From assembly GCF_000429925.1 (NCBI RefSeq), contig NZ_AUCU01000014.1, positions 1-64,000 on the forward strand: DNA of 64,000 bases. Direction: 5' to 3'. Source of the stretch: Desulfatirhabdium butyrativorans DSM 18734. Lineage in GTDB: Bacteria > Desulfobacterota > Desulfobacteria > Desulfobacterales > Desulfatirhabdiaceae. A model generated the notes under the pieces. It saw only the letters and a program-made list of their open reading frames with translations. It was not told the origin of the DNA and searched no databases. Positions 36,117-51,435 of the stretch are shown here, piece after piece. A program made the translations under genes and the position numbers. Each line of letters opens with the position of its first letter. The stretch's first letter is position 1.

Positions 36117-37592
36117 ATGGAAAAAACCCTGCTGTTGGTGGATGACGAGAAGGACTTCCGGGAAAGCCTGGCGCTGCATCTTCAGGAGATGGGATTTCTT
36201 GTCTATTCGGCCGCAAATGGAGCGGAGGCCATCGAGCAGTTCCGGAGGATCAATCCGCTGATTGTGCTGATGGATGTCCTGTTGCCCGATGGCAATGGTC
36301 TGGACTTGATGCGGCGGATGAAGGCGGAGATACCGGATGTCGAGATCATCATGATCACCGGATTTGTCGATACGGATCTGATCATCAAAAGCTTCCAGAG
36401 CGAAGCCACCGATTTTCTGACCAAACCGATCCGGCGGGAAGCCCTGCATCATGCGCTCGATCGCGCCATGAAGAAAATCGCGCTCCGAAGTCAATTGCAT
36501 CGCAACGCCGAAAAAAGCACCATGCGGGATATGGTCATCAAGGAGCTGATCAATGAAGATGTCATGGTCATTGGCCCGGACTATCGCATCCTCGATGTCA
36601 ATGGGCACATGCTCGAGAATCTGGATATGACAAGAGACCAGGTGATCGGGCGGTATTGCTATACCATCACCCACCACCAGGACAGCCCCTGTTGCGGCGA
36701 CAATCATCCCTGCCCGCTCGCCGAATGTCTGGACCTGCAAAAGCCCACGCAGGCAACCCATATTCACTTCAACCGGAACAATGAAGAAATCTACTATTCC
36801 ATCTCGTGTTACCCGATTTTTGAAAACAGCCGGATCATCGGTGCCATCGAGCTGTCCCGGGATATCACCCCGGAGATCAACAAGCAAAAGATGATGCTTC
36901 AGGAAAGCAAGATGGCCTCCGTCGGCCGTCTTGCGGCAGGGGTCGCCCATGAAATCAACAACCCACTGACCACAATTCTGACAACAGCCATGCTGATGCA
37001 GGAGGAGCTGAACCCTGGAGATCCCTTTTCGGATGATCTCGAACTGATCACCAAAGAAACCCTTCGCTGCCGGAAAATCGTCTCCGCCCTCCTGGACTTT
37101 GCCAGACAGCGAAATCCCATGAAGAAGAATGAAAGCCTTCCCAAACTGATCGACGAGGTCGTTCTGCTGACGCGCAAACAGGGGGCTTTCAAGGATGTGC
37201 GGGTGGAATGCACCCATTGTGCCGCAGATCTGCCCCTGATCCAGATGGACAGGGGGCAGATGCAGCAGGCGCTGATCAACCTGATTCTCAATGGCATCGA
37301 GGCCACGGAACCGGGCGGGAGTGTCCGCATTTCCGCAGAACTTTCTGGTGATCGGGCCTTTGCCGAGATTCAGGTTCAGGATACGGGCTGCGGCATTCCG
37401 GAAGAAGATCAGAAACAGCTCTTCGATCCCTTTTTTACCACCAAGGAAAGCGGGACTGGTCTCGGTTTGGCCATCACCAGCGGCATCATTTCCCAGCATG
37501 GGGGAACCATTGCGGTATCCAGCACGCCTGGGCAGGGCGCCACCTTTACCATCCGGTTGCCGCTGAATCCGGAATCCAGCCATGCCGCCTAA
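36117..37592 (+). CDS. Receiver-PAS-histidine kinase hybrid sensor
   Basis: The 491-residue soluble kinase has an N-terminal receiver (LLLVDDEKDF; Asp53-type DVLLPDGNG; KPIRR). A PAS domain (about 135-250) contains a Cys-rich insert CYTITHHQDSPCCG...CPLAEC. The HisKA box is AAGVAHEINNPLT (about 280-292) and the HATPase has NLILNGIEAT, DTGCGIP and GTGLGLAI. There are no membrane segments. The Cys-rich insert is typical of PAS domains in anaerobic sigma-54 circuits and could bind a metal or sense redox state. The gene overlaps the next regulator by 11 bases. Confidence 0.92.
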   Translation: MEKTLLLVDDEKDFRESLALHLQEMGFLVYSAANGAEAIEQFRRINPLIVLMDVLLPDGNGLDLMRRMKAEIPDVEIIMITGFVDTDLIIKSFQSEATDFLTKPIRREALHHALDRAMKKIALRSQLHRNAEKSTMRDMVIKELINEDVMVIGPDYRILDVNGHMLENLDMTRDQVIGRYCYTITHHQDSPCCGDNHPCPLAECLDLQKPTQATHIHFNRNNEEIYYSISCYPIFENSRIIGAIELSRDITPEINKQKMMLQESKMASVGRLAAGVAHEINNPLTTILTTAMLMQEELNPGDPFSDDLELITKETLRCRKIVSALLDFARQRNPMKKNESLPKLIDEVVLLTRKQGAFKDVRVECTHCAADLPLIQMDRGQMQQALINLILNGIEATEPGGSVRISAELSGDRAFAEIQVQDTGCGIPEEDQKQLFDPFFTTKESGTGLGLAITSGIISQHGGTIAVSSTPGQGATFTIRLPLNPESSHAA

Positions 37593-39009
37593 AATCCCCC
37601 GCATCCTGATTGTGGATGACGAGCCCCATATCTGCCGGAATTGCGAAAAGATTCTCTCCAAATTGCCATGCGAGACCGAATCCGTCCTGAACGGATACGA
37701 CGCATTGGAGCGGATGGCTTCGGCGCCCTTCGATGTGGTGGTGACGGACCTGAAAATGAGCGCCCTTGGCGGAATGGAGCTGCTCAGGCGTATTCGGGAA
37801 GATTATCCGTTGACCCGCGTGATCGTCATGACCGGGTATGCATCGGTATCATCGGCTGTGGAAGTGATGAAAATCGGCGCTTGCGATTATCTGCCGAAAC
37901 CCTTCACCCCGCATGAGCTGCGATCGGTCGTCCGGCAGGCGATCGAAAAGGAAGCACTTTCAGACAGGCGGCTGGCGCCGATGTCTGAGGCGAAAGCCTC
38001 ACAAGCAGCGAAAACCCACCAGTTGATCGGCAACAGCCCACAGATACGCCAGGTTGTGGCCATGATTCAGAAAGTGGCGCCGACGGATGCCACCGTCTTC
38101 ATCTGGGGGGAAAGCGGCACCGGCAAAGAACTGGTGGCTCGGGCTGTCCATGCCAACAGCCGGCGGGCGGACAAGGTCTTTTTTGCGGTCGATTGCGGGA
38201 CGCTGAGCGGCAATCTGCTGGCCAGCGAATTGTTCGGCCATGCCAAAGGCGCCTTCACCGGCGCAGACCGTGAAAAAGAGGGGATCTTCAAACTGGCCGA
38301 TGGCGGAACGGTTTTTCTGGATGAAATCAGCAATATCAGCCTCGAGGTTCAGGGCATGCTGCTGCGTTTTCTCGAAAGCCGTGAATTTCTGCCCGTCGGC
38401 GGGACAAGCGTCCAGCATGTCCATGTGCGGCTGATTTTTGCGACCAACCAAAATCTGCAAGCCATGGTCGATTCCGGTACGTTCCGACAGGACTTCTATT
38501 ACCGCATTTTTGTCTATCCCATCGTCATCCCGGCCTTGCGGGAGCGAAAATCGGATATTCTGCCCATTGCCACGCATTTTCTGAAGCTCTTCAGCCGAAA
38601 CCTGAACAAGACCATTCTTGGCTTCGATCCAGCTGCCGAAGACTATCTCGTCGGCTCCGAATGGCCGGGAAATGTCCGCCAGTTGCGTAACAGCATCGAG
38701 CGGGCGGTGATTCAATGCGAGTCGGAGCGCATCCGTGTTCAGGATATGGTGGTGCAGGAGGCACTTTCTTCCGGGATGGCCGACGGGACATTTGTTCCGG
38801 GTACCAATGAAGCGCTGAAGGAGGCCAAAAAAAGCGTCCGGCAATCGGCTGTCTGGGAGCTGGAAAAGCGTTTCCTGATCCATGCGCTGACCCGAAACGA
38901 CTGGAATGTGACCCGTGCAGCCCGGGAAACCGGTATCCAGCGCACCAATTTTCAGGGCATGATGAAAAAATACGGCATTACCCGTCCTTCCCGATCCGGA
39001 ACCCATTGA
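37582..39009 (+). CDS. Sigma-54-dependent NtrC-family response regulator
   Basis: The 475-residue regulator has a receiver (ILIVDDEPHI; Asp in VVTDLKMSALGG; LPKPFTP), an AAA+ sigma-54 activation domain (Walker A GESGTGKELVARAVH; the sigma-54 loop GAFTGA; GGTVFLDEIS), and a C-terminal Fis-type helix-turn-helix (DWNVTRAARETGIQRTNF). All activator motifs are intact. It overlaps the sensor kinase and is probably phosphorylated by it. Target promoters are unknown. Confidence 0.95.
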   Translation: MPPKIPRILIVDDEPHICRNCEKILSKLPCETESVLNGYDALERMASAPFDVVVTDLKMSALGGMELLRRIREDYPLTRVIVMTGYASVSSAVEVMKIGACDYLPKPFTPHELRSVVRQAIEKEALSDRRLAPMSEAKASQAAKTHQLIGNSPQIRQVVAMIQKVAPTDATVFIWGESGTGKELVARAVHANSRRADKVFFAVDCGTLSGNLLASELFGHAKGAFTGADREKEGIFKLADGGTVFLDEISNISLEVQGMLLRFLESREFLPVGGTSVQHVHVRLIFATNQNLQAMVDSGTFRQDFYYRIFVYPIVIPALRERKSDILPIATHFLKLFSRNLNKTILGFDPAAEDYLVGSEWPGNVRQLRNSIERAVIQCESERIRVQDMVVQEALSSGMADGTFVPGTNEALKEAKKSVRQSAVWELEKRFLIHALTRNDWNVTRAARETGIQRTNFQGMMKKYGITRPSRSGTH

Positions 39010-39073
39010 TCCGCAAAATACCTTTTTCTCTCTCAATGTTATCGATGGCAGCCTGTTTGTCGTCTATAGACTG

Positions 39074-39823
39074 TCAAGATATCATATCATCTACTGAAAT
39101 TGTCCGAATGCCAATAGCTGTGTAGCTGTCATGGTTTCCATGCGTCCGGTTGGACAACAGTTCTTCCATTTTTTTAAGCCACTGTCCGACTGAAGCGGAA
39201 TGGCCTAAAAATTCTTCCATTTCTTTTTCCAGTACATATTCCCAGAAACCGTCCGTGCACAGCAGAAACGAATCGCCTGGCTGCACCGCATATGTCTTGT
39301 CATAAATGGCCGGACGAAAAACTTCGGGGCTTCCCAGGCAGCGCAGCAGACGATTCCGGTCTTTGTGGCCGCGGATGTCCTCAGGCCGTATTTCATCGGC
39401 ACCAACCAGCATCTGAGGAACACTATGGTCTTTAGTCTGAAATATGACACGATTTTTGTGAAAAACATACAATCTGCTGTCACCAAGATGGGCCCATCGG
39501 GCCTGGTCATTTCGAATGACCAACAGAATGATTGTGGTGCGCATGGCATAACAGTCAGGCTCCGCTTGTTGACCTGCAATAATGGCCTTCTGCGCATTTT
39601 CAAGCGTGTCATGCAGATTGTTCAGGGGATTGTCCGATGACATCGATAGAAATGCCAGAGCTGTTTCAACTGCAAGCGAAGATGCCTTCTGTCCGCCCCG
39701 GTGGCCTCCCAGCCCATCGGCAACGACCCAGGATCCACCTGTTGGTACCAAATGGTAGGCACAGGCGTCCTCATTGACCATTTGCCCACCCGGGTTGCTG
39801 ATCCACGATGTATCGTATTTCAT
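39074..39823 (-). CDS. PP2C-family protein phosphatase (first)
   Basis: The 249-residue PPM-type Ser/Thr phosphatase has the metal motif WVVADGLGGHRGGQ (Asp36), an early NEDA motif (about 17-20), RWAHLGDSRLYVF, and DSFLLCTDGFWEYV with the late metal-binding Asp. It is the last gene of the minus-strand cluster and lies 280 bases past the kinase gene. Such enzymes reverse phosphorylation by the adjacent kinase, as PppA does for PpkA in type VI secretion. No secretion genes are visible here. The sequence is richer in A+T than the NtrC gene next door. Confidence 0.93.
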   Translation of the reverse strand: MKYDTSWISNPGGQMVNEDACAYHLVPTGGSWVVADGLGGHRGGQKASSLAVETALAFLSMSSDNPLNNLHDTLENAQKAIIAGQQAEPDCYAMRTTIILLVIRNDQARWAHLGDSRLYVFHKNRVIFQTKDHSVPQMLVGADEIRPEDIRGHKDRNRLLRCLGSPEVFRPAIYDKTYAVQPGDSFLLCTDGFWEYVLEKEMEEFLGHSASVGQWLKKMEELLSNRTHGNHDSYTAIGIRTISVDDMIS

Positions 39824-40103
39824 TTCGATCTCCTTTTACACTGTGTTTCATTTCTGAAAAACGGGCTGATCGACCTCTAATAATGTCATGACAATCTGCT
39901 TATGGGTGGACAATGAAGTTATATCTATTCCCCCAAAAATCCAAAAGAAAGCCATGAGATCTTCCGTGAGGGTTTTTAATAACCAGTTGAGTGTCTCTCA
40001 ATGGGAGACATCAATCTTGGATCGCGCTAAGGTTTATATGAGGGGTTTGAAATCGGCTCTAACGAATCAATTTAAAATCTCAAGCGATTTTAGCCAAGCC
40101 AAT

Positions 40104-41984
40104 TCAATTCTGAACCAGATATTGCTTGAGTTCGTCCTTACGATAATGCATCGTCGCTGAACCTAAAAATGTTACATATCCTTTATTATCAATTTGTTTC
40201 AATATGGCTACAAGTTGAATATTAGATGAATCAAGCAGTTTATTAGGATTGTCTATTGCTATTCTTAATTTAGCTTTTTCAGATACGGCGTGTGGCATAA
40301 GGGTTATATGTTCGGTTTTTGAATCTTCATATTGCTTTCCATCCAAAACCGCATATCCATCAACACTCATCTGGATTATTTGTGCCGTATCATTGCTGAT
40401 TCGCCAATATATCAAAAATGTTTTTAGGCTATCGTTCATTAATATTTTACCAACAGTGACTGAAATGCCGTTGGTGTTTTTCACCCCTGCAGTAACTGAA
40501 ATTTTATTGGCCATTTCGGAAGGCTGCTTTGATGCCCCATCTTTCATTTCAATAGTTCTATTTTCCCTTGGTACTTCTTTTTGTTGAGTTTTTGAAGCCT
40601 GTCCATCCTTTATTCCAGCAGCTTCTTTCATGGCTGGCAATTGAATTAAGAGTTCCTTTTTTTCCCCAGCGGAAAGTTCAATAGTCCGTTCCTCGCTGCC
40701 ATATCCGGTCAGCATTGCCTGCACAGTTACTTTTCCAGGCCGCACTTTTTCCATGTGAATTGTACCATGCCCCCGATATTTTCCATCAACAATGACCTCC
40801 GCTTCTTTGGGATTAATATTCACAGTCAACATGGCACTACGGTCAAAAAAAAGAAATGCTACTAATAAAATTAAAAGAGTTCCGGCACCAAATCCCAATA
40901 TTTTCCAACGGTTTATGCCTATTTCAATATGTGGCGTTATGGGAGTATTGGGCATTTGTTTTATTTCGGTCAACAAGGATCTGGGTTGTTCTGTTTTAGG
41001 AAGGTATGAATCAATCTCACCCCTCAGCATCTTTGACCAAGTTACAACGTCCTTGGGGCGATCGCATGCTTTGACTCGCATGGCTACTTGAACCGCTTCA
41101 CTAATTGCAGGGGATAACCCTGGAACCAGATTAGAAAGTGGAATCAAATTATCTTCTTCAATCCTATCCGTTGCCGCATCTGGTACCTTTCCCGAAAGCA
41201 TGAAATACATTGTTGCAGCAATGGCATAGATATCTGTCCATGGACCTTGATTGCCACTACTTCGATATTGTTCAAATGGTGAAAAGCCTGGTGTGACTAC
41301 GACTGACAAACTCCTGCTATGCTCCCCCATTGCATATCGAGCAGCGCCAAAATCCAGGAGAATTATCTGGTTCTGCCTTGTCAGATAAATATTTGCCGGT
41401 TTTACATCACGATGGAGATACCCTTTTTCATGCACATGTTTGAGTCCGCTCAGGATAAAACTGATGATTCCCAAGGCTGTTTTTTCAGGTATCATACCAT
41501 TTTTTTGCTTTACATATTCAGCCAAGGATACTCCTTCGTAGTAGTCCATGACCAGATATGCCGTGTTATTTTCCTCAAAATAGTTTTTAACCCGTACAAT
41601 ATTTGGATGGTCAAAGCCTGCCACTGTTTGTGCCTCAGCCAAAAACGCCTTTAGACCATATTTGAAAAACTCTTCGTCCTTTCCGCTGTGGGCTATTACA
41701 GTTAGTCGATCCGAAGCTCTGACCGCATTATCCCGGGGCATAAATTCCTTGATTGCTACCCGGGTTGATAGCTTAGTATCCTTGCATAGATAGGTTATCC
41801 CAAAACCGCCAGGGCTTCCCAGAACCCGACCTACCAGATACTGATTGTGTAAGACAGTTCGCAAAGGCAAGGCGGCCGGACTCCGAAAATCATTTTCATC
41901 ATAGCCGCATAATGAGCACTCTCGTCTTTCATTAGCTTTTTCGAAAAAGCAGTTCGGACAAGCAACATTTCGTGCTTCCATCAA
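40104..41984 (-). CDS. Membrane-anchored Ser/Thr protein kinase with zinc ribbon and PEGA domain
   Basis: The 626-residue protein has an N-terminal zinc ribbon (CPNC 9-12, CSLC 23-26). The kinase domain (about 48-325) has loop GSPGGFGITYL, Lys79 in VAIKEFMP, HRDVKPAN (191-198) and DFGAAR (211-216). One membrane helix spans about 362-380. Outside it are a PEGA domain (about 385-450), a charged linker and a C-terminal beta-rich domain (about 490-626) that I do not recognise. The extracytoplasmic part could sense the envelope. It lies between the two phosphatase genes and is the obvious source of the phosphothreonines that FHA proteins bind. Confidence 0.93.
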   Translation of the reverse strand: MMEARNVACPNCFFEKANERRECSLCGYDENDFRSPAALPLRTVLHNQYLVGRVLGSPGGFGITYLCKDTKLSTRVAIKEFMPRDNAVRASDRLTVIAHSGKDEEFFKYGLKAFLAEAQTVAGFDHPNIVRVKNYFEENNTAYLVMDYYEGVSLAEYVKQKNGMIPEKTALGIISFILSGLKHVHEKGYLHRDVKPANIYLTRQNQIILLDFGAARYAMGEHSRSLSVVVTPGFSPFEQYRSSGNQGPWTDIYAIAATMYFMLSGKVPDAATDRIEEDNLIPLSNLVPGLSPAISEAVQVAMRVKACDRPKDVVTWSKMLRGEIDSYLPKTEQPRSLLTEIKQMPNTPITPHIEIGINRWKILGFGAGTLLILLVAFLFFDRSAMLTVNINPKEAEVIVDGKYRGHGTIHMEKVRPGKVTVQAMLTGYGSEERTIELSAGEKKELLIQLPAMKEAAGIKDGQASKTQQKEVPRENRTIEMKDGASKQPSEMANKISVTAGVKNTNGISVTVGKILMNDSLKTFLIYWRISNDTAQIIQMSVDGYAVLDGKQYEDSKTEHITLMPHAVSEKAKLRIAIDNPNKLLDSSNIQLVAILKQIDNKGYVTFLGSATMHYRKDELKQYLVQN

Positions 41985-42236
41985 TAATTTTTCCCTAATT
42001 CAGTTGATCAATTCTTTAAGGAGGGTAATTAGTTAGCTCCTCCTGCGGAGTGCCAACGTCAAGCACAGGGCGTTCAGGGCTTTTGGCCGGTTACGCTATT
42101 AATCTGGATTTTCTCCGTGATATTAGTATGCTGCCTGTTATCCGGATAGGTAACCGACTAATGCGTTGCTTTAATTTCCTTTTGCATGGGAAGCCTCAAT
42201 GTGTTGGCTGGGAGGGTTAGACCGGGTTAATTCATA
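41985..42236. other. Gene-free stretch upstream of the kinase gene
   Basis: No gene or clear promoter is supported. The gap from 41985 to 42541 may hold a separate promoter for the kinase gene, since the spacing to the second phosphatase gene is large. Confidence 0.4.
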
Positions 42237-42371
42237 CCAGTTGAGCCAATTGCAAAACCCCCATTTTTCATCACCCCGGCGAAAGCCCTCGAGGTCCATA
42301 ACGCCTTGAAGTGAATTAGTTTAGGTTTTCGCCGGGACGATGTGGAGGACTTTTGCAATTGGCTCAGCTGG
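42237..42371. repeat. Inverted-repeat element family 2, full copy
   Basis: The 135-bp element has ends CCAGTTGAGCCAATTGCAAA and TTTGCAATTGGCTCAGCTGG. The interior pairs tcaccccggcgaaagcc with ttttcgccgggacga. It is inserted between the kinase and second phosphatase genes. Related pieces are at 15641-15677 and 21951. Confidence 0.85.
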
Positions 42372-42541
42372 ATTAGATTTATCCGATTCAAGAAAACGCA
42401 GCCGAAAACGGAAACCTTTTGCGTAATGAATCATGCCAACACACAATTCCCTGAAAAGCCACAAAAACGAACATAATGCCGATTAGAAGTGGTTTAGGCT
42501 TCATCTTTTTGAATCAGCATGTCTTTTCTTTTTCGATCAAT

Positions 42542-43324
42542 TCATACGTCCCGTTCAAATCCAAAAATGACAGCCGTCATATTATCTTGATTTTGCAATT
42601 GCTTGGAAAGAGCGGTTTTAATAAGTGCTTCAGCAGCCTGTTGAGGGTGGCCGGAAAGCATTTGAACAATTTCGTTTTCAACAAGTGTCTTGTAGACACC
42701 ATCACTACACAACAGAATCCGATCTCCATTTTTCAGAGAGAGTGGCGTATTGTTCTGATTTACTTCTTTCAGATTCTCCCATCCCAAGCCGCTGGTCAAT
42801 GCGTCCCTGTATGGGTGGAACAGGGCTTCTTTGATAGCAATCTCCCCGGAAGCTGCACGGACATCCAGTAAACGACCATACAAATGATCCTGTGTCAGTT
42901 TTATCAAAACACGATTTCGACAGAGGTAAATGCGACTGTCTCCTACGGATATCCAGTATAATCGGTTTTGATGGATTACTGCCGCAGCAAGGGTTGCACC
43001 AACCTGATTCTTCTTTCCGGCTTTTCTTGCCAATGAAACCACAGCCTCATTGGCGGACAAGAGTGAGCGGCGCAGTGCTCTGGAGATGCTTTCATCAACA
43101 GATTTTTCCTGATATGATAGAATCATGGTTGTTTTGCCAATATAACCAGCCTCCTTTCCCAGGGACAAACCTCCCATTCCATCGGCAACAACGGCCAAAA
43201 CTCCTCCATGTCGAACAAAATCCGGATTTTCCATATCAGAAAATCCAAAATCATCCTGCTGTTCCTTGCGTGATCCCTGGTGACGACAGTTCCCCGGAAT
43301 AATGTGCATGACGAACTCGGACAT
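42542..43324 (-). CDS. PP2C-family protein phosphatase (second)
   Basis: The 260-residue PPM phosphatase has EQQDDFGF, the metal motif VVADGMGGLSLG (Asp48), ISVGDSRIYLC, DRILLCSDGVYKTL and the final DNMTAVIFGF. It differs considerably from the first phosphatase, so the two may act on different partners. I chose ATG 43324: the ribosome site GGGAG overlaps the end of the zinc-ribbon/FHA gene, whose stop is at 43327, giving tight coupling. The open frame reaches 43354 without better signals. Confidence 0.93.
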   Translation of the reverse strand: MSEFVMHIIPGNCRHQGSRKEQQDDFGFSDMENPDFVRHGGVLAVVADGMGGLSLGKEAGYIGKTTMILSYQEKSVDESISRALRRSLLSANEAVVSLARKAGKKNQVGATLAAAVIHQNRLYWISVGDSRIYLCRNRVLIKLTQDHLYGRLLDVRAASGEIAIKEALFHPYRDALTSGLGWENLKEVNQNNTPLSLKNGDRILLCSDGVYKTLVENEIVQMLSGHPQQAAEALIKTALSKQLQNQDNMTAVIFGFERDV

Positions 43325-43326
43325 CC

Positions 43327-43929
43327 TCACTCCCAATGAAAATTTTCTCCACACATTGGAATGAACAGCAGTTTTGTATTTCCCAGTCGAATTACGTCAT
43401 AGGGAGTCAAGCAGGTCGGCATATCCACGTCGTTACCATTAAGAAAGACCATACTACGGCTTTCCCCAGGAATCAGCTTGAATACATGATTTTCCGGATT
43501 ATAGGTGACAACCGCGTGTTTTTCTTTTGAAACAGCCTTATCTCCGCGAATACATATGTCCATATTTTCAGCCCTTCCAATAGCATTTTTTTCGCTTTTG
43601 ATCCGATAATCCCGACCACGGTCCGGACCATCAATGCATACAAGCCAACCCACCACCGGATCAAATCCCAATCGTTCATCCAGAATCCGAATGGTGTCTT
43701 TATCATTTGATGACTGGATGTTCGGGTTTGATAGGGTCTTGCATATCGGCCGAGTTGGGATGCTTGTGCTACACTGATTTTGCCTAAAAGAAGGGCTGGG
43801 TTCCAAGACGTTATTTCCCTTAAAAATCTTTGTCGGTTTAATGCCTAAATCATTTATCCCGCAATATGGACAGGAGTTGTTTTTAGCCGGATCATAGGTA
43901 TGACCGTTTTCACAACGTTTAAATGCCAT
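43327..43929 (-). CDS. Zinc-ribbon plus FHA-domain protein
   Basis: The 200-residue protein opens with a zinc-ribbon-like CENGHTYDPAKNNSCPYCG (Cys6, Cys20, Cys23), then a flexible linker (about 30-90). The C-terminal FHA domain (about 93-195) has GRAENMDICIRGD, VSKEKHAVVTY and MVFLNGNDVD. FHA domains bind phosphothreonine, so this is a probable target or reader of the cluster's kinase. The stop codon lies two bases before the second phosphatase start. It is preceded by a 293-base gap that could hold an internal promoter. Confidence 0.9.
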   Translation of the reverse strand: MAFKRCENGHTYDPAKNNSCPYCGINDLGIKPTKIFKGNNVLEPSPSFRQNQCSTSIPTRPICKTLSNPNIQSSNDKDTIRILDERLGFDPVVGWLVCIDGPDRGRDYRIKSEKNAIGRAENMDICIRGDKAVSKEKHAVVTYNPENHVFKLIPGESRSMVFLNGNDVDMPTCLTPYDVIRLGNTKLLFIPMCGENFHWE

Positions 43930-44222
43930 AAGATCTCCTCATGATGAGAAAAAATCGCCGCCACCTGGTTGCAACACGGCACCTTAGCTCTCACCTTAAC
44001 GCATAATAATCACAAATCAGCATAATAACCGTATGGTTACTGCGATTCATCTGGCAATATTCGTATCTGGGGTATGAGCTATAATTCAGGTACCATTACA
44101 GATCATGTCACAATTCAGCCGTGTGGCCCAAAGCTAAGGAAGCGGAAAATATTAACCCATTGCCTGAAAGCGAAATAAATCTTTTATTTGAAATGTTTGA
44201 TTTGGAATATCCAATGAGTTAT

Positions 44223-44648
44223 TTATTTCCAAATACTAATAAGCCCCAACAGAATTCCTAAGACACCAAGAAATAGGCTTATTCCACCAAGTCTTGCGGC
44301 AAGACGAACAATAATTTGCGGATGATTGGTACAAGCTTTGAATTGTGCCCACCATGAATGGCAGGGTTTGATTATCAGCGGGATATTATTTTGCGACTGA
44401 AGATTTCCAAGTCGATTCCGAAACCAGCCATTGATGACTAAAGAGGAAGCCGGATCGGTAATGAAGTGGCGTGGTGGTTGATTATATCCAGACAGAAAGT
44501 TATTCTCGATTTGTAGAGCTTCACAATAGATACGCTTTTTATTTGCAGGATTTGTGATTTTCACAATACATCGCTCTGGAATGTTGGCGTTTTGTAGCCA
44601 GACCCAACCTTGATGTGCATCTTCTTCACGTGAGGCAAATAATTTCAT
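44223..44648 (-). CDS. Small membrane-anchored protein of unknown function
   Basis: The 141-residue protein has a soluble N-terminal domain (about 1-105), VWLQNANIPERCIVKITNP, YCEALQIENNFL and VINGWFRNRLGNLQSQNN. A single C-terminal membrane helix follows (GGISLFLGVLGILLGLISIW). I recognise the beta-rich pattern only loosely (barrel-like, possibly double-psi) and cannot name a family. It lies between the TolR-like and FHA genes on the same strand, so it is probably part of the same apparatus, perhaps as an anchor or adaptor. Confidence 0.75.
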   Translation of the reverse strand: MKLFASREEDAHQGWVWLQNANIPERCIVKITNPANKKRIYCEALQIENNFLSGYNQPPRHFITDPASSLVINGWFRNRLGNLQSQNNIPLIIKPCHSWWAQFKACTNHPQIIVRLAARLGGISLFLGVLGILLGLISIWK

Positions 44649-44729
44649 TGTAAGCGCCTATCAAGTAATGACTGAATAAAAAGAATGGCTGTTCTGGGCG
44701 AAATAATAATTTGATCAAATACTTTCGAA

Positions 44730-45539
44730 TTACCAGCTAAATTCGACGGTTCCATCATCTTTGACCGTAATCACACCAACCGATTTTTTAATCTTTTCAT
44801 CTGTCAAAAGAATTTCAGGTATAAGTTTGCTGCCGTCTCGAAAGAAGATACGTCCCTTGACCGTCGGGTTAGATGTATTTCCATGCCTGGCAAACAAATT
44901 GGCAAAAATTTGATATCGCCCGGCTGGTGCATCCTTGATTTCCCAGACTTCGTTGCCTGGCCCGATCTGGCTGTCTTCGCTCAATTCACCAGGTCGACTA
45001 GAGACAGTCTTTTGTTTAAAATAAAACTCTGCGCCTGTTGGATCGATAACATGCAAATCTACATCCTGATTCAAGGTGTTCCAGCGGATATAGATGACAA
45101 GAAAGGTTTTGGCCAACATCTGTTCGGCTCGCCTAGCCCGTTTTTCGGCATCTTGGGTCGCTTTTCTTGTAGACTCTAGTAGATTTTCGAGTTCCTGAGT
45201 CCGCTGAACATCTTTCTGAAGCCGTTTTATTTCTTGCTGCTCGGCCTGCATACGATCTTGGGCAGCCTGGATTTGATGACGAACCTGCTCCAACTCAGCT
45301 TGAGCGGCCTGAGAAGCAGCTTCGGCTATGCTGGCACGAGCCAATGCCGAATCAGTCTCCTGACGCGCTACATTCCGTTGTTGCTCAAGCTGATGTATTT
45401 CCTGCTGATAATCTATACTGGATTTTTTATAATAGGGAAGTAGAATGATCATCAACAGGATAAACGCGCCCAATGAGCCACAGATGACATCCAGCATGGA
45501 CAGATTGAATATGTTGATGTCCCGGTTGCGGGGTTTCAT
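44730..45539 (-). CDS. TolR/ExbD-like subunit with coiled coil and YfaP/DUF2135-like domain
   Basis: The 269-residue protein has an N-terminal FNLSMLDVICGSLGAFILLM motif (11-30). Asp17 lies at the start of the single membrane helix, where TolR, ExbD and MotB carry their proton-channel aspartate. A coiled coil of about 110 residues follows (about 40-150, rich in Gln, Ala and Glu). The C-terminal beta-sandwich (about 150-265) has YIRWNTLNQDVDLHVIDPTG and GPGNEVWEI, as in YfaP/DUF2135 proteins. The TolR periplasmic domain is absent. The start overlaps the stop of the TolQ/MotA-like gene (ATGA), which argues for a two-subunit complex. Confidence 0.82.
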   Translation of the reverse strand: MKPRNRDINIFNLSMLDVICGSLGAFILLMIILLPYYKKSSIDYQQEIHQLEQQRNVARQETDSALARASIAEAASQAAQAELEQVRHQIQAAQDRMQAEQQEIKRLQKDVQRTQELENLLESTRKATQDAEKRARRAEQMLAKTFLVIYIRWNTLNQDVDLHVIDPTGAEFYFKQKTVSSRPGELSEDSQIGPGNEVWEIKDAPAGRYQIFANLFARHGNTSNPTVKGRIFFRDGSKLIPEILLTDEKIKKSVGVITVKDDGTVEFSW

Positions 45540-46315
45540 GAGGATTTTTCGTCGTAAAGTCGATTGATAAGATGTTTTAGAGTGTACTGGCCAGCCTGAT
45601 TAACGCAAGTTTCTTCCTGTTTTTGGATTACATGCAGCAAAAGAACCAAAATGGCACTCAGACAAAGGGCCACCAAAGTGGTATCAAAAGCCACACCTAA
45701 AGATGCCGTAATGGTTTTTAAATCTGGAGCATCCGGATTGACTTTGTAAATGGCGTCTGAAATGCCGACTACCGTGCCAATAAAACCGGTTGTGGGGATG
45801 GCCCAAGTAATGTAACGAAGCATGGTATAGCGCAAATCAACCCGGTGGGAAATCAGATCTAGACTTGAATTTAGAACACTGACCGTCTGATCCACGGATC
45901 GACTGGCTTGAAACTGAAGAATACAGAAATCGATCAGATAGGGCAAAAAACCGTTTTCGGAATCATAATCAGATCGAACTTTACGTCGAATCGCCCCCAA
46001 GTCCCGGGACAGAAGAACCACGGAATCGTCTTCCGGCAAATAGTGCCTGCTGAGAAACGTCTGTTCCCGTATGGCCGTATGCCACCGGGTAAAAATTTCT
46101 CCCAACCCTATAAAGAAAAGGATGTGTTCCAGATTCTGGATAGTGAATGGATAGAAAAAAAGGGTTGTTCGAGTATCCAGCAACATGGCACCGGCTCGGC
46201 TTTTATCCAGCAGAAGGGTCATGATCAGAATAAACAAACAACCTGTAACCATCGCTAGGGTCAGGATGAGCCAGCGTCTCAGTGGCGGACGCACTGCTGG
46301 ATTTGGATCGCTCAT
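45536..46315 (-). CDS. MotA/TolQ/ExbB-family membrane protein
   Basis: The 259-residue protein has four predicted membrane helices (about 14-36, 54-73, 166-187 and 210-230). The MotA/TolQ/ExbB core is WAIPTTGFIGTVVGI (171-185) and FDTTLVALCLSAILVLLLH (210-228), including the Thr residues that line the ion path in TolQ/ExbB. A cytoplasmic loop of about 90 residues lies between helices 2 and 3. I chose ATG 46315 because it overlaps the stop of the FHA gene (ATGA); the frame extends to 46333. It should form the ring part of a stator-like channel with the TolR-like protein. Confidence 0.88.
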   Translation of the reverse strand: MSDPNPAVRPPLRRWLILTLAMVTGCLFILIMTLLLDKSRAGAMLLDTRTTLFFYPFTIQNLEHILFFIGLGEIFTRWHTAIREQTFLSRHYLPEDDSVVLLSRDLGAIRRKVRSDYDSENGFLPYLIDFCILQFQASRSVDQTVSVLNSSLDLISHRVDLRYTMLRYITWAIPTTGFIGTVVGISDAIYKVNPDAPDLKTITASLGVAFDTTLVALCLSAILVLLLHVIQKQEETCVNQAGQYTLKHLINRLYDEKSS

Positions 46316-46728
46316 CGGCCACACTCTCGGCACGGAAGGCCTTTCTGTTTAATTTTTCCACAATCACACCGAATCAGTTGTGCATTGTCTGGCCAGACGT
46401 TGGGAGATGGACGCTCCAATGAAGACGGTTTGATGTTCCGATAAGGCCAGGATGGATATTTTAGCCGGATAACCTCCAGCAGTTTCTTGACTGTAATAGA
46501 GATGCTGCCGAATTGGACGATATCTGTGGGCGTCAAAAAATCTTGGGTGATTCGGTGAGCCCGCCCATTTTCAATAATTGAAGTACCATTCCTGCTGTGA
46601 CAGTCGATTAGTAATAGGTAGCCATTATTCAAAAAAATAAGTTCTGCATGATTACGGCTGACAGTTTCGTCAGATAACACAATATCACAATGTCTCGATC
46701 TTCCGATGGTGAATTTATGTTCCTTCAT
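46312..46728 (-). CDS. FHA-domain protein with C-terminal zinc ribbon
   Basis: The 138-residue protein starts directly with an FHA domain: FTIGRSRHCDIVLSDETVSRNHAELI (shown in part: GRS at 9-11, SRNH at 24-27) and CHSRNGTSI. The tail ends with a zinc-ribbon-like CDCGKIKQKGLPCRECG. I chose ATG 46728 because GAGG lies six bases upstream and the longer frame would begin in non-coding sequence. It is the first gene of the cluster, 107 bases after a good promoter, and overlaps the TolQ/MotA-like gene. It likely links phosphorylated kinase or channel to the rest. Confidence 0.9.
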   Translation of the reverse strand: MKEHKFTIGRSRHCDIVLSDETVSRNHAELIFLNNGYLLLIDCHSRNGTSIIENGRAHRITQDFLTPTDIVQFGSISITVKKLLEVIRLKYPSWPYRNIKPSSLERPSPNVWPDNAQLIRCDCGKIKQKGLPCRECGR

Positions 46729-46834
46729 GGATACCTCATTAGCCTCGATTAAATAATGGGAATGGATAAGGATAATATTGATCATAATGGAGGAAATGTA
46801 TTTGCAGAAATGCAGTATATATTTTGATTTTTTT

Positions 46835-46863
46835 TTGATAACACTGGGAAGTAATACTGTCAA
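46835..46863 (-). promoter_or_regulatory. Putative sigma-70 promoter of the FHA/channel cluster
   Basis: On the minus strand, TTGACA (46858-46863) is a perfect -35 box and TATCAA (46835-46840) a fair -10 box, with exactly 17 bases between. Transcription would start near 46828, about 100 bases before the first FHA start codon. No operator was recognised. Confidence 0.55.
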
Positions 46864-46994
46864 GGGGTTTTTATAAAGTCGAGCTTGGATAGACCACTCT
46901 TTGTAACCCGCATTACATAAGCTTTTTCATATCTTAGCACTTACAAATTTATAATGTTATTGCCAATTTGTAAACTTTCAGCTATGCATGGGTC

Positions 46995-48164
46995 ATGATT
47001 GAAAGAAAAGCCCTCTCCACAATTCTTGAGCTGGCGGAAGGATATCCGTTTGTCGCCCTCACCGGACCTCGCCAGGCAGGCAAAACCACCCTCAGCCGTA
47101 TGGCGTTTCCCGATAAACCTTACGTCTCGCTGGAAGATCCGGACTTTCGTGAATTTGCCGTCTCCGATCCTCGCCGCTTCCTGGCGCGCTATCCGGATGG
47201 CGCGATATTCGATGAGGTCCAACGAGTTCCGGAGTTGTTTTCCTATCTTCAGACAGTTGCTGACTTGGACGGCCGTATGGGGCGCTATATCCTCACGGGT
47301 TCGCAGCACTTCGGCCTGTTGGCCGGAATCACGCAGTCACTGGCGGGACGAGTCGGCATGGTCCAGCTCCTTCCCTTTTCTTCGGGAGAACTGCTGGCTG
47401 CCGGCCAGCTTCCCGAAGCCCTTGATGCCCTCCTCTACAAAGGTTCCTACCCACCCCTTTATGATCGTCCACTTGCCCCGATTCAATGGTATGCTGGCTA
47501 CGTCACCACGTATCTGGAGCGAGACGTGCGGCAACTGATCCATGTCCGCGACCTGGCAGTCTTCCAGCGGTTCATCCGGCTCAGCGCTGCCCGCACCGGC
47601 CAGCTTCTGAATCTTTCTTCCCTGGCAAATGACTGCGGTATTTCCCACAACACCGCCAGGGCCTGGATTTCGATTTTAGAGGCAAGCTACATTCTTTTCC
47701 TGCTCCCGCCGCACCATCGCAACTTCAACAAGAGGCTGGTGAAGACGCCAAAACTCTATTTTTACGACGCCGGGCTTGCTGCATGGCTCCTGGGGGTGCA
47801 AAACGCCGACCAGCTCTCCATCCACCCCCAAAGGGGCGCATTGTTCGAGACGTGGGTCATTGGAGAACTGCTCAAGGGCAGATACAACAGGGCGCTTCCT
47901 TCGAATCTGTTCTTCTGGCGGGATAACACCGGAAATGAAGTGGATGTCATCATCGATCAGGGGTTGAAATTGATATCCATCGAGATCAAATCAGGCCATA
48001 CGATCAATGCGGATTACTTCTCCAGCCTGCGAAAATGGCTTTCATGGGCCGGGGCCGAAGCAGGAGATCCCTATCTGATTTACGGCGGAGATGAGCGCCA
48101 AGAGAGGAGAAATGTGAAAGTGACGCCATGGCGGGAGGTGATGGGAATTGCAGAGGTTTTTTAG
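46995..48164 (+). CDS. AAA ATPase with DUF4143 domain
   Basis: The 389-residue protein has an AAA_14-type ATPase: Walker A ALTGPRQAGKTTLSR (about 21-35), Walker B DGAIFDEVQ (about 68-76) and sensor ILTGSQHFGL. A winged-helix and DUF4143 nuclease-fold region follows, ending in NLFFWRDNTGNEVDVII...LISIEIKSG. Such proteins are common in anaerobes and have no settled function. It is divergent from the FHA/channel operon and shares an AT-rich intergenic region with it, but nothing else links the two. Confidence 0.9.
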   Translation: MIERKALSTILELAEGYPFVALTGPRQAGKTTLSRMAFPDKPYVSLEDPDFREFAVSDPRRFLARYPDGAIFDEVQRVPELFSYLQTVADLDGRMGRYILTGSQHFGLLAGITQSLAGRVGMVQLLPFSSGELLAAGQLPEALDALLYKGSYPPLYDRPLAPIQWYAGYVTTYLERDVRQLIHVRDLAVFQRFIRLSAARTGQLLNLSSLANDCGISHNTARAWISILEASYILFLLPPHHRNFNKRLVKTPKLYFYDAGLAAWLLGVQNADQLSIHPQRGALFETWVIGELLKGRYNRALPSNLFFWRDNTGNEVDVIIDQGLKLISIEIKSGHTINADYFSSLRKWLSWAGAEAGDPYLIYGGDERQERRNVKVTPWREVMGIAEVF

Positions 48165-48185
48165 CGCGCCTTTTTTCCGATCTTG

Positions 48186-48412
48186 GTGCCTGAACAAAAC
48201 CCCGTTTTTACCGGACCAGAGCCAGATGGCAGGCAGTTTTGCGATGCAGCCGGAACGTGGCCGATGCCGCCGGAGTGACGCCTGCGGTCAACAGCCCTGC
48301 CGATGATCACGCCTACGGCATCATCCGGGCCGAACCATATTGCGATGAGAGCCGGGGAGCTGCGGCGATATCGAAATTCCCTTTAAACACGATAGGTGTT
48401 CGCTTGAGCATA
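48186..48412. repeat. Degraded family-1 element (long form)
   Basis: It begins GTGCCTGAACAAAACCCCG, passes through ggcaggcagttttgcgatgc as in the long copies, and seems to end in a mutated right repeat (ggtgttcgcttgagcat). The interior is much altered. It follows the DUF4143 gene by about 20 bases. Confidence 0.55.
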
Positions 48413-48450
48413 AAATATGATGGCTCCACAGAAATCTGATTCGAAGCGGT

Positions 48451-48759
48451 TCATCTGTTCGTTGGTCTGTGGCATACGTTTGCGGCCACTTGAAGATGAA
48501 CACCCAATGTGTTCAGTATTTTCATGATGGTATCGAATCTGGGTTTAGCTCCCGGCGTCATCGCTTTATAGAGACTCTCGCGCGCAAGGCCTGAATCCCG
48601 CGCAATCTGACTCATTCCGCGCGCTTTGGCGATATGTCCAATCGCGGCCAGTAGTTCATCGGGATTACCATCCGCCAGAACCTGGGAAAGATATTCCGCA
48701 ATGGCCTCCTCGCTATCCAGAAAAGAGGCCATATCAAATGGCGCCAGGCGTTTGGTCAT
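48451..48759 (-). CDS. HigA-like antitoxin (helix-turn-helix)
   Basis: The 102-residue protein is of the addiction-module antidote type. DSEEAIAEYLSQVLADGNPDELLAAIG is the usual N-terminal helix region. The helix-turn-helix is AKARGMSQIARDSGLARESLY, and the tail FDTIMKILNTLGVHLQV is typical. It is encoded after the toxin with an ATGA overlap, the toxin-first order of HigBA-like pairs. It probably represses its own promoter as well as binding the toxin. Confidence 0.88.
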   Translation of the reverse strand: MTKRLAPFDMASFLDSEEAIAEYLSQVLADGNPDELLAAIGHIAKARGMSQIARDSGLARESLYKAMTPGAKPRFDTIMKILNTLGVHLQVAANVCHRPTNR

Positions 48760-49052
48760 GTTTGATACTCCTTTGCAAGTTCTTTGGCACGGATAATGTC
48801 TTTTTGTTGGCTGGATTTGCGCCCGCCAACCAGTAAAATGATGAGGTTGTTATTTCGTTGGGTATAGTAAATTCGATAACCGGGGCCTATGGGAAGACGC
48901 ATTTCCCATACATCGGTGCCCACAGATTTGTGGTCGCCCAGATTGCCGGCCTGAGCTCTTTCGATACGACGGGCAATTGCGATTCTTGTACGAATATCCT
49001 TTATTCGGGAAATCCATTTTATGAATGTTTCTGTTTGTTGAACGATATACAT
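48756..49052 (-). CDS. RelE/HigB-like toxin
   Basis: The 98-residue protein is of the phage-derived Gp49/HigB-like RelE superfamily: TFIKWISRIKDIRTRIAIARRIERA, NLGDHKSVG, VWEMRLPIGPGYRIYYT and a C-terminal lysine- and arginine-rich ILLVGGRKSSQQKDI. These are ribosome-dependent mRNA endonucleases. ATG 49052 gives the family-length product; the frame extending to 49187 enters a family-3 repeat. The antitoxin overlaps its stop. Confidence 0.88.
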   Translation of the reverse strand: MYIVQQTETFIKWISRIKDIRTRIAIARRIERAQAGNLGDHKSVGTDVWEMRLPIGPGYRIYYTQRNNNLIILLVGGRKSSQQKDIIRAKELAKEYQT

Positions 49053-49127
49053 GGAGTGACTGTAGTCGTAGGATTCCAGATGTGTCAAGTAAAAACAAAG
49101 GATGCCAGTTGGAACATTGTGAACCAT

Positions 49128-49294
49128 GACGGCTTCGCAAAAAGGCCGGATATCCCGCGTGCCGCGGGATCGTGCTGCATCCTTCATCGTTGAGGCGTAC
49201 GTTTAAATACGCCTCACTCCACAGCTTTTGCACTCCTTGTCTGCGGCCTTTTTTCGAAGCCGTCCATATGATGGACTTTTTGCGAGTCCATCAA
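49128..49294. repeat. Inverted-repeat element family 3 (inverted copy)
   Basis: The inner ends are GACGGCTTCGCAAAAAGGCC (49128) and GGCCTTTTTTCGAAGCCGTC (49264), followed by the outer motif atggactttttgcgagtcca. The interior has cccgcgtgccgcggg and gcgtacgtttaaatacgcc hairpins. It is the reverse of 28221-28382. Confidence 0.8.
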
Positions 49295-49776
49295 CCATGT
49301 GTGCTTGAAGGGAAAACCATGTTTGGGGCAAATGGTTGTCTTCAATCGGGCGCAAATCGGCGAAGACACAATAATCCGGCTCGTTGGCGGCTTTGTATCG
49401 ATGGCTGAACGGTTGGCGCCAAACAATCCGGTTGGTTGCAGGTCAACTGGCTTGAACGTCTTTTCGATGCCATACACTGTATATTCTGATCATACACCAC
49501 CTTGCGTTTAACCATCCTTTTTTCAACCCTTTGATATTCAACCTGATTATTTCATTTTTCATCAGTCTTACCCATCAAAGTTCTGCCCGCAAGGTTGCCG
49601 GACATGTATGGATGGATCATACACATCCGCTGAAGCGGCGCCCTTCGCCAAACTGAAAAGAGCGTAAAATCAGTCAGCTATATCCACAGGCTTTGTTGGC
49701 ACGGGATGTGCTGTATCTGTTTGCAAACAGACATCGGCGCATTTTCAAACCCCAACCCAGCAAAGGAGGCTGAGAT
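49295..49776. other. Gene-free stretch before the double-receiver gene
   Basis: No gene is supported. A weak resemblance to the family-1 left end occurs near 49300 (gtgcttgaagggaaaacca). An AAAGGAGG ribosome site lies at about 49763, ahead of the next gene. Confidence 0.5.
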
Positions 49777-51435
49777 ATGAATCCAACTGCAAAAATCATG
49801 GTTATCGACGATGAAAAAGGGATCTGCCGGAATGTGGAAAAAATCCTGTCCAAAAATCATTACGATGTGGTTTGCGCGCTGAGCGCCGCAGAGGCCCTCG
49901 AAAAAATGAAGCAGGAGTCCTTTAACCTGATGATATCCGATATCGTCATGCCGGAAATGAATGGTCTCGAACTGCTGAAGCAGGTCAAGCAGAACTGGCC
50001 GCAAACGAAGGCTCTGATGATGACCGCCTATGCCTCAACCGATACGGCCATGAAGGCGATTCGGCTGGGTGCGCTGGATTATGTTCCCAAACCGTTCACG
50101 CCGGAAGAGCTGCGAACCAGCGTCGAGAAGGCGCTTGAAGGACAACTGGTCGAGGTCAAGCCGTCTCCGGAGGAAATCGAGATCATCAATGTCATCGATA
50201 TCGACATGCCGTTCGATGGCGATGAGGTGGCCACCTATACCGGGGAAGATTATGTCCGGACGCTGGGCAGATCCGATATGCCGATCGTTGAAGTGAAAAT
50301 GCCGGAACACCTCGAGAACTATTGCTCCGTCGGCGAGATGGTCTGCGATATTTTCAAGAAGCTGGGCGGCACTTGCAAGGTGGGAACCAAGACCCATGCC
50401 TGTCCCCAGAAAAAGGCGCGGAAACCGGAATCGGGCGCCGATACCCCGAAAATGGATCGATCGGGATGGATTGGTATCGATATGCCATTCAATTACGATG
50501 AGGTGGTTGCCGTGACCGGCCCGGAATATGTTGCGCATCTGAATGCTGACAGCATCGGTTATGTGCCGTATGAGGAACTCAAGCGGAACGTCGCCAAAAT
50601 GCTCGGCGAAAAGCCGCTCGTCATCGATGTGGATATGCCCTTTGATCCCCAAGAGGTGGCCAGGACAACGGGTGTGACCTATGTCAAAACGCTCGGGCCA
50701 TCGGATATGCCGGTAGTAAGCGTTACCGTACCGGAAGCGATCGAAAATTATTGTTCCGTCGGCGAGATGGTCTGCGATATTTTCAAGAAACTGGGCGGCA
50801 CCTGTAAGGCCGGCACAAAAACCCGGGTCTGTCCCCAGAAAAAGGCCAAACAGGCAAAATCGGTTTCACAGCCTGCCGTTTATTCCGGTGATCTGATTGC
50901 AGTGGACATGCCGTTTCGCTTTGATGAGGTGGCTGAAGTGACCGGCAGGGAGTATGCCATGCATCTGGAAGGGGAACAGATGGTGATCCCCTATCCGGAG
51001 TTGAAGCAGCGTGTGGCGGCGATGCTTGCCCAATCGGAAGGCGCGGGCGTCCGGGAAAAGACCTCCGTCAGGCGCAGTGCGCTGATTGTGGACGACGAAG
51101 TCGGCATCAACAACAACATCCGCAAAATTCTGGAGAAGAAGGGCTACAGCGTCGATCAGGCCGTCAGCAAGGCAGAGGCGCTCGAACGGGTCGAAAGCAC
51201 ATCCTACCCCATCATCATGCTGGATTTGAAGATGCCAGGCGTCAATGGACTCGAACTGCTGCAGGCCATCCGATCCCGCAGACCTGAATCCATGATCGTC
51301 ATCATTACGGGATATGCGAGCATCGAAACCGCAGTGGAAAGTGCGCGCATGGGCGCCGTGGGCTATGTATCCAAGCCGTTTACACCCGATGAAATCCGCA
51401 AGGCTGCAGATGAAGCCTTGCGCCTGGCTGCATGA
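49777..51435 (+). CDS. Double-receiver protein with repeated DMPF and Cys modules
   Basis: The 552-residue protein begins and ends with response-regulator receivers (6-120, Asp55, Lys105; 434-550, Asp483, Lys533). Between them are four repeats of an I-x-x-DMPF-x-x-DEV-x-x-x-TG-x-x-Y module (140-161, 231-252, 281-303, 372-393). Two of these are followed by an almost identical block (about 180-213, 323-356) with four cysteines each, spaced 7, 10 and 9 residues (Cys183/190/200/209 and 326/333/343/352). There is no DNA-binding or enzymatic output domain. The Cys blocks could bind a metal or cluster, or form disulfides. I do not know a characterised homolog. Confidence 0.85.
   Translation: MNPTAKIMVIDDEKGICRNVEKILSKNHYDVVCALSAAEALEKMKQESFNLMISDIVMPEMNGLELLKQVKQNWPQTKALMMTAYASTDTAMKAIRLGALDYVPKPFTPEELRTSVEKALEGQLVEVKPSPEEIEIINVIDIDMPFDGDEVATYTGEDYVRTLGRSDMPIVEVKMPEHLENYCSVGEMVCDIFKKLGGTCKVGTKTHACPQKKARKPESGADTPKMDRSGWIGIDMPFNYDEVVAVTGPEYVAHLNADSIGYVPYEELKRNVAKMLGEKPLVIDVDMPFDPQEVARTTGVTYVKTLGPSDMPVVSVTVPEAIENYCSVGEMVCDIFKKLGGTCKAGTKTRVCPQKKAKQAKSVSQPAVYSGDLIAVDMPFRFDEVAEVTGREYAMHLEGEQMVIPYPELKQRVAAMLAQSEGAGVREKTSVRRSALIVDDEVGINNNIRKILEKKGYSVDQAVSKAEALERVESTSYPIIMLDLKMPGVNGLELLQAIRSRRPESMIVIITGYASIETAVESARMGAVGYVSKPFTPDEIRKAADEALRLAA

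Follow-up and report, generated by a model that had tools for sequence, protein, structure and literature searches.

Several ion-driven motors of the bacterial inner membrane have been described (Mot, Tol, Exb, Agl and Zorya), and we know of none with a dedicated Ser/Thr phosphorylation switch encoded beside it. The Agl/Glt gliding machinery of Myxococcus xanthus combines a TolQ/R-type motor with an FHA protein. In the threonine phosphorylation pathway of the type VI secretion system (T6SS), a membrane kinase, a PP2C phosphatase and an FHA protein answer envelope injury (PMC12133291). TerY-P triads of kinase, PP2C and vWA proteins accompany restriction systems, and TerY-P-like modules protect against phage (PMC11090510). 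We analysed a stretch of 64,000 nucleotides of Desulfatirhabdium butyrativorans DSM 18734 (contig NZ_AUCU01000014.1, hereafter the window) that contains a block of eight minus-strand genes for a membrane Ser/Thr kinase, two PP2C phosphatases, two FHA proteins (FHA-A and FHA-B), a TolQ-like protein, a TolR-like partner and a small protein with one transmembrane (TM) segment. This block is probably a real, undescribed and horizontally moving system of unproven function, because the same combination recurs in distant bacteria without type VI secretion. Searches of the open-access literature gave nothing relevant to this gene combination.

The eight open reading frames claimed in a sequence-only reading of the window were all found, with significant Pfam matches to PP2C (twice), Pkinase plus PEGA, FHA (twice) and MotA_ExbB. 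From 46.9 to 39.1 kb their order is FHA-A, TolQ, TolR, small one-TM protein, FHA-B, PP2C-2, kinase and PP2C-1 (Table 1). The ATGA overlaps said to join the first three genes are present for FHA-A/TolQ (ATG 46315 over TGA 46314-46312) and for TolQ/TolR (ATG 45539), and the further coupled pair is FHA-B and PP2C-2, separated by 2 nt. The most likely start of FHA-A is ATG 46728 (138 amino acids) and not TTG 46863, which the reading frame reaches, because relatives begin at the same place and a GAGG lies upstream. A single eight-gene operon is unlikely because of intergenic gaps of 557, 280 and 293 bp, which indicate several transcription units instead. The claim of a good sigma-70 promoter at the head of the block is weak, as the best nearby sites match at 9 of 12 positions; promoter-like sites were not commoner than chance (19 found vs 17.1 expected from shuffled sequence). 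PP2C-2 and the kinase are separated by the gap of 557 bp, in which nested inverted repeats lie at 42223-42385 (35-nt arms, 80% complementary, and inner 19-nt arms) that resemble a small repeat element. No pseudogene remnants of vWA-FHA or protease-FHA genes were found in the gaps of the block by tblastn.

Table 1. Features of the block and of the island around it in the window.
Feature	Position	Strand	Description
FHA-A, small cytoplasmic FHA protein	46312..46728	-	C-terminal zinc ribbon; FHA PF00498 7.4e-16
TolQ/ExbB-like channel subunit, 259 aa	45536..46315	-	MotA_ExbB PF01618 1.3e-11
TolR-like partner	44730..45539	-	N-terminal TM with Asp17, 103-residue coiled coil, C-terminal YfaP-family/TerD-like beta-sandwich
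Small one-TM protein	44223..44648	-	Probably a mobile-element passenger
FHA-B	43327..43929	-	N-terminal zinc-ribbon-like CPYC motif, C-terminal FHA (3.3e-7)
PP2C phosphatase 2	42542..43324	-	PP2C 8.9e-14; metal-binding Asp motifs DGMGG, GDS, SDG and QDN in sequence
Ser/Thr kinase	40104..41981	-	N-terminal zinc ribbon, kinase domain, one TM, PEGA; Pkinase 8.4e-36, PEGA 5.3e-7
PP2C phosphatase 1	39074..39823	-	PP2C_2 2.8e-17
AAA_14/DUF4143 ATPase, island neighbour	46995..48164	+	Pfam; PADLOC candidate PDC-S01 4.9e-101
Toxin-antitoxin pair	48451..49187	-	HI1420-type antidote PF21716 9.4e-43; Gp49/ParE-type toxin PF05973 3.7e-5
Low-GC island, ~10.7 kb	39010..49776	none	Sits between two response-regulator genes adjacent in relatives

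By its MotA_ExbB domain, modelled fold and channel threonines, all of which match, the TolQ protein is a member of the TolQ/ExbB/MotA channel superfamily. Its predicted model (predicted local distance difference test, pLDDT, 86) was fitted by VIA-align to TolQ (Z 14.8), ExbB (13.5), ZorA (10.9) and MotA (10.0); with Foldseek, neither the TolQ nor the TolR model matched any PDB entry at E below 0.001, and the structural claims made here depend on VIA-align. Thr182, Thr213 and Thr214 are conserved, the channel threonine being kept in nearly all homologues aligned. In the model of the partner (pLDDT 83), residues 13-37 form a TM helix, residues 41-143 one further helix and residues 145-269 a beta-sandwich. 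The earlier TolR/ExbD-like call stands as far as gene position, homologues and the N-terminal TM with its conserved Asp17 (23 of 23 homologues aligned) are concerned; no ExbD/TolR Pfam or NCBIfam model matched, however, and the head is a beta-sandwich other than the TolR periplasmic fold. This head resembles YfaP (DUF2135) in sequence, with 97.7% and E 2.5e-12 by hhalign over 76 columns, which cover part of the domain, and with E 6e-5 by tblastn. A PDB sequence search with the head returned nothing meaningful. It also fits TerD 3ibz (Z 10.7, root-mean-square deviation 3.2, 124 aligned; next unrelated entry 7.2), which may point to a structural kinship with TerD; kinship by sequence found no support, a shallow TerD profile of only 3 sequences giving E 0.25 and no TerD Pfam model matching.

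The kinase retains intact VAIK, HRD and DFG motifs in the window, and most relatives keep these motifs too. Its PEGA domain and the remaining, unassigned C-terminal part are predicted to be periplasmic. In the nearest relative, a metagenome assembly, the kinase is split into two overlapping frames (L027 6941-8570), by a frameshift or an assembly error. The FHA-B profile was matched in eight of nine carriers searched, and FHA-A gave weak profile matches to TagH (3.1e-11, below the cut-off) and to the gliding protein GltG (E 9.6e-4).

With Tol-Pal TolQ/TolR and ExbB/ExbD the block shares the TolQ fold, the conserved channel threonine and the TM Asp of the partner. It differs in that TolQ has an additional N-terminal helix, that the partner's head is YfaP/TerD-like and follows a long coiled coil, and that a kinase, phosphatases and FHA proteins are coupled to the motor. 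ZorAB of Zorya is likewise a MotA/TolQ-type channel with a TM-Asp partner and can sit among defence genes. However, the protein here is without the long tail of ZorA, to which its fit is weaker and its PADLOC match only 2e-4, and the partner is without a peptidoglycan-binding domain, the weak ZorB matches spanning only TM and coiled coil. No PADLOC match to ZorC, ZorD or ZorE was obtained in the window cluster, the flanks being scanned in part. The sequence-only reading had set Zorya aside for its absent ZorB OmpA-like domain and ZorC/D, and we also rejected membership, as the ZorA tail and the ZorB domain are missing and PADLOC matched no effector gene in the window cluster. TerY-P triads and Ter systems have in common with the block a zinc-ribbon kinase, PP2C, vWA proteins in relatives and the TerD-like fold of the TolR head, but here the zinc ribbon is N-terminal, the set includes FHA proteins and an ion channel, and the TerD link is structural only. 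The window cluster has the kinase-zinc ribbon and PP2C of the triad and no vWA protein, vWA-TM-FHA proteins being found in some relatives. The Agl/Glt machinery of M. xanthus shares the association of a TolQ/R-type motor with an FHA protein, but beyond the weak GltG profile match no further Glt-type gene was recognised. As in the PpkA/PppA/Fha pathway of T6SS, the block contains a membrane Ser/Thr kinase, PP2C and an FHA protein, and its signal is likely an envelope one; the machine here, by contrast, is a TolQ/TolR-like motor, and the carriers searched are without T6SS. T6SS had been named as an explanation that could account for the kinase/FHA set, but none of the 18 carrier genomes or records that were searched contained the sheath family PF05943 (the E. 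coli control was positive), which rules out a T6SS remnant in the sampled carriers.

Searches anchored on TolQ recovered related clusters. They come from Desulfobacterota, Bdellovibrionota, Acidobacteriota and Alphaproteobacteria, and one lies on a conjugative megaplasmid of Rhizobium (NZ_CP125637.1). Counted per genome, as lower bounds with the best few candidates scored in some genomes, the TolQ profile was found in 1 of 398 Pseudomonadota, 3 of 247 Acidobacteriota, 4 of 46 Bdellovibrionota, 8 of 289 Alphaproteobacteria and two of eight members of the family, window genome included, while full TolR relatives occurred in only 2 of 395 genomes of the phylum. At 22 TolQ loci, for which counts are minima because several end at contig edges (one FHA-B lies on another contig of the same genome), we found TolR at 20 (the remaining two hit contig ends), the kinase at 17, stand-alone FHA-A at 16, FHA-B at 15, PP2C at 13, a trypsin-TM-FHA protein at 8 and a vWA-TM-FHA protein at 5. 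The 17 kinase-bearing loci come from four phyla and a plasmid. The recurring core consists of kinase, TolQ, TolR, FHA-A, FHA-B and PP2C, often with a membrane-anchored protease-FHA or vWA-FHA protein, and at most loci, that of the window included, FHA-A and TolQ are adjacent or overlapping. A check on co-occurrence, as opposed to scattered genes, went in favour of the sequence-only reading, the families being clustered inside ~10 kb in four phyla. The fullest locus, in G196 (L028/L045), encodes FHA-A, TolQ, TolR, FHA-B, vWA-TM-FHA, PP2C-TM-peptidoglycan-binding, trypsin-TM-FHA-FHA, PP2C, kinase-FHA and kinase proteins. In the TolQ tree phyla are mixed, the window grouping with Bdellovibrionota and one alphaproteobacterial member, and horizontal transfer fits this mixing. 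No copies were found in phages or viral contigs.

The block lies in an island that is inserted in the window genome. In three relatives from the same family (G275, G395 and G397; loci L112, L114 and L105) the orthologues of the flanking genes at 37582-39009 and 49777-51435 are ~310-330 bp apart, which indicates an insertion of ~10.7 kb. The cluster has a GC content of 43.6% and the island (39010-49776) one of 45.6%, whereas the two flanks reach 57.0% and 57.1%, in agreement with the AT-richness noted earlier. Neither a tRNA nor clean terminal repeats were found at the island boundaries. The island is composite, as shown by its internal gaps, a passenger gene and, at 42223-42385, the repeat-like element. 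That passenger is the small one-TM protein, which the sequence-only reading had counted as a member. It is probably outside the system, because no homologue was found in any other cluster (nor in 297 genomes of the phylum) and its plasmid relatives adjoin integrases or transposons. On conjugative plasmids, such relatives lie beside Tn3/IS genes in Aeromonas or right after an integrase trio in Rhizobium (L121 and L122).

Our best reading, to which we give about even chances, is a membrane system that moves horizontally and has a Tol/Exb-type ion-driven motor under the control of a kinase-FHA-phosphatase switch. The inner-membrane channel would be built from five TolQ-like and two TolR-like subunits, a stoichiometry taken by analogy, and the TolR rod would bear a periplasmic head that acts as sensor or effector and is YfaP/TerD-like in the window and vWA in some relatives such as that of Nioella, where it takes the place of the YfaP/TerD-like head. 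By analogy with the T6SS threonine phosphorylation pathway (PMC12133291), the membrane kinase, whose periplasmic part differs among relatives, would sense an envelope or cell-wall event and phosphorylate a partner. FHA-A, coupled to TolQ in translation, and FHA-B would bind the phospho-site and so turn the motor on or recruit clients, and the PP2Cs would reset the switch; ion flow would drive the motor, and the system may protect from envelope injury. Peptidoglycan-binding domains recur on different members, namely a PP2C (L028), the kinase (L048, the ~9 kb locus of Nioella ostreopsis) and the trypsin-type FHA protein (L096), which suggests that the complex sits at the cell wall. On plasmids the kinase/FHA-B/PP2C trio is also found without TolQ, beside dynamin-family genes in Leisingera and Ruegeria and in another setting in Azospirillum, and because it occurs there with other outputs, this suggests a modular phospho-switch joined to various outputs. 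In the Leisingera/Ruegeria loci (L116, L118 and L119) the dynamin-family genes are paired, and substrate-binding-domain genes are present in two. The Azospirillum lipoferum plasmid AZO_p4 (L117) encodes two FHA proteins, two PP2Cs, a trypsin-like protein, a kinase and an OmpA-family protein, with a site-specific integrase ~6 kb away.

Several observations weigh against this phospho-switched motor. The TolQ/TolR relatives L089, L091 and L094, which nest within the window's half of the TolQ tree, have no adjoining gene for a kinase, a PP2C or an FHA protein, which means that the switch is dispensable for the motor to work. Both L089 and L094 encode one more one-TM protein, of ~230 amino acids and without Pfam match. 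The kinase of L097 is without HRD and DFG. The window locus is gapped and has neither of the protease-FHA and vWA-FHA members present in other loci, and may therefore be reduced or partly decayed. The structure models are of monomers only. Of the phosphorylation-gated, ion-driven machine put forward in the sequence-only reading, the intact channel and kinase residues fit, whereas gating, ion flow and biological role we only infer.

Anti-phage or anti-mobile-element defence of Zorya-like logic, in which the motor would sense the envelope perturbation of an infection and the kinase arm would signal or trigger dormancy, appears rather unlikely to us. The patchy TolQ distribution given above, the island with empty sites in relatives, its toxin-antitoxin pair and PDC-S01 ATPase and the TerY-P parallel (PMC11090510) speak for it, as do the Rhizobium conjugative-plasmid copy, which adjoins Gabija (GajA 1.8e-238, GajB 8.3e-157) and Mokosh (MkoA 9.7e-174, MkoB 1.1e-106), and the G404 copy, which comes after a RecD-like helicase and an AAA ATPase with PADLOC matches. 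However, most sampled loci have ordinary neighbours (RND efflux, MgtE, MutL), four acidobacterial TolQ are near-identical and several have common MgtE/MutL-type flanks, which has the look of stable inheritance, and the phages and viral contigs searched held no copies; the set itself is unrecognised by PADLOC and is without nuclease or recognised toxin. The very patchy presence and the island insertion count against a machine that maintains the envelope and would be a phospho-regulated counterpart to Tol-Pal or to the Agl/Glt gliding motor, moved horizontally for niche benefit. We consider this unlikely, although it draws on the TolQ/ExbB-type fold, the peptidoglycan-binding and protease domains, the YfaP-type periplasmic head, the TolQ/TolR relatives without kinase and the weak likeness of FHA-A to GltG. 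None of the conserved genes was recognised as coding for a partner of the TolA, TonB or Pal type, and only the related TolQ-less plasmid locus has an OmpA-family gene.

That the genes are chance neighbours in an AT-rich island is highly improbable: the gaps, the repeat-like element and the passenger gene do speak of a composite island, but the same families lie within ~10 kb in four phyla, and only 3 full kinase matches exist in the 4.48 Mb window genome. The probability that the set is a leftover regulatory piece of type VI secretion is negligible, for although kinase, PP2C and FHA genes accompany T6SS and FHA-A weakly matches TagH, the sheath family was found in 0 of 18 carriers and TolQ/TolR is not a T6SS part.

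Two further clusters were encountered. In the phylum of the window, another one recurs (L031, L033, L035, L037 and L039), in which TolQ is accompanied by a TolR-like protein or two and by several proteins with one TM, among them one of ~800 amino acids. On Anabaena and Microcystis plasmids (L051 and L052), a distant MotA/TolQ-family gene is followed by two small hypothetical genes, with type III-B CRISPR and viperin genes around one copy and DNA methylase, SLATT and helicase genes around the other; this is possibly a separate defence system.

All parts of the phospho-switched motor lie within ~8-16 kb, which makes it testable by one transfer experiment. We propose tentatively, at somewhat less than an even chance, that such loci represent an undescribed, horizontally spread class of defence or damage-response machines, with a TolQ/TolR motor, exchangeable periplasmic heads, a kinase/FHA/PP2C switch and optional protease and vWA modules. 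If true, phospho-control of the T6SS type would reach another class of machine, and the defence repertoire of bacteria may grow.

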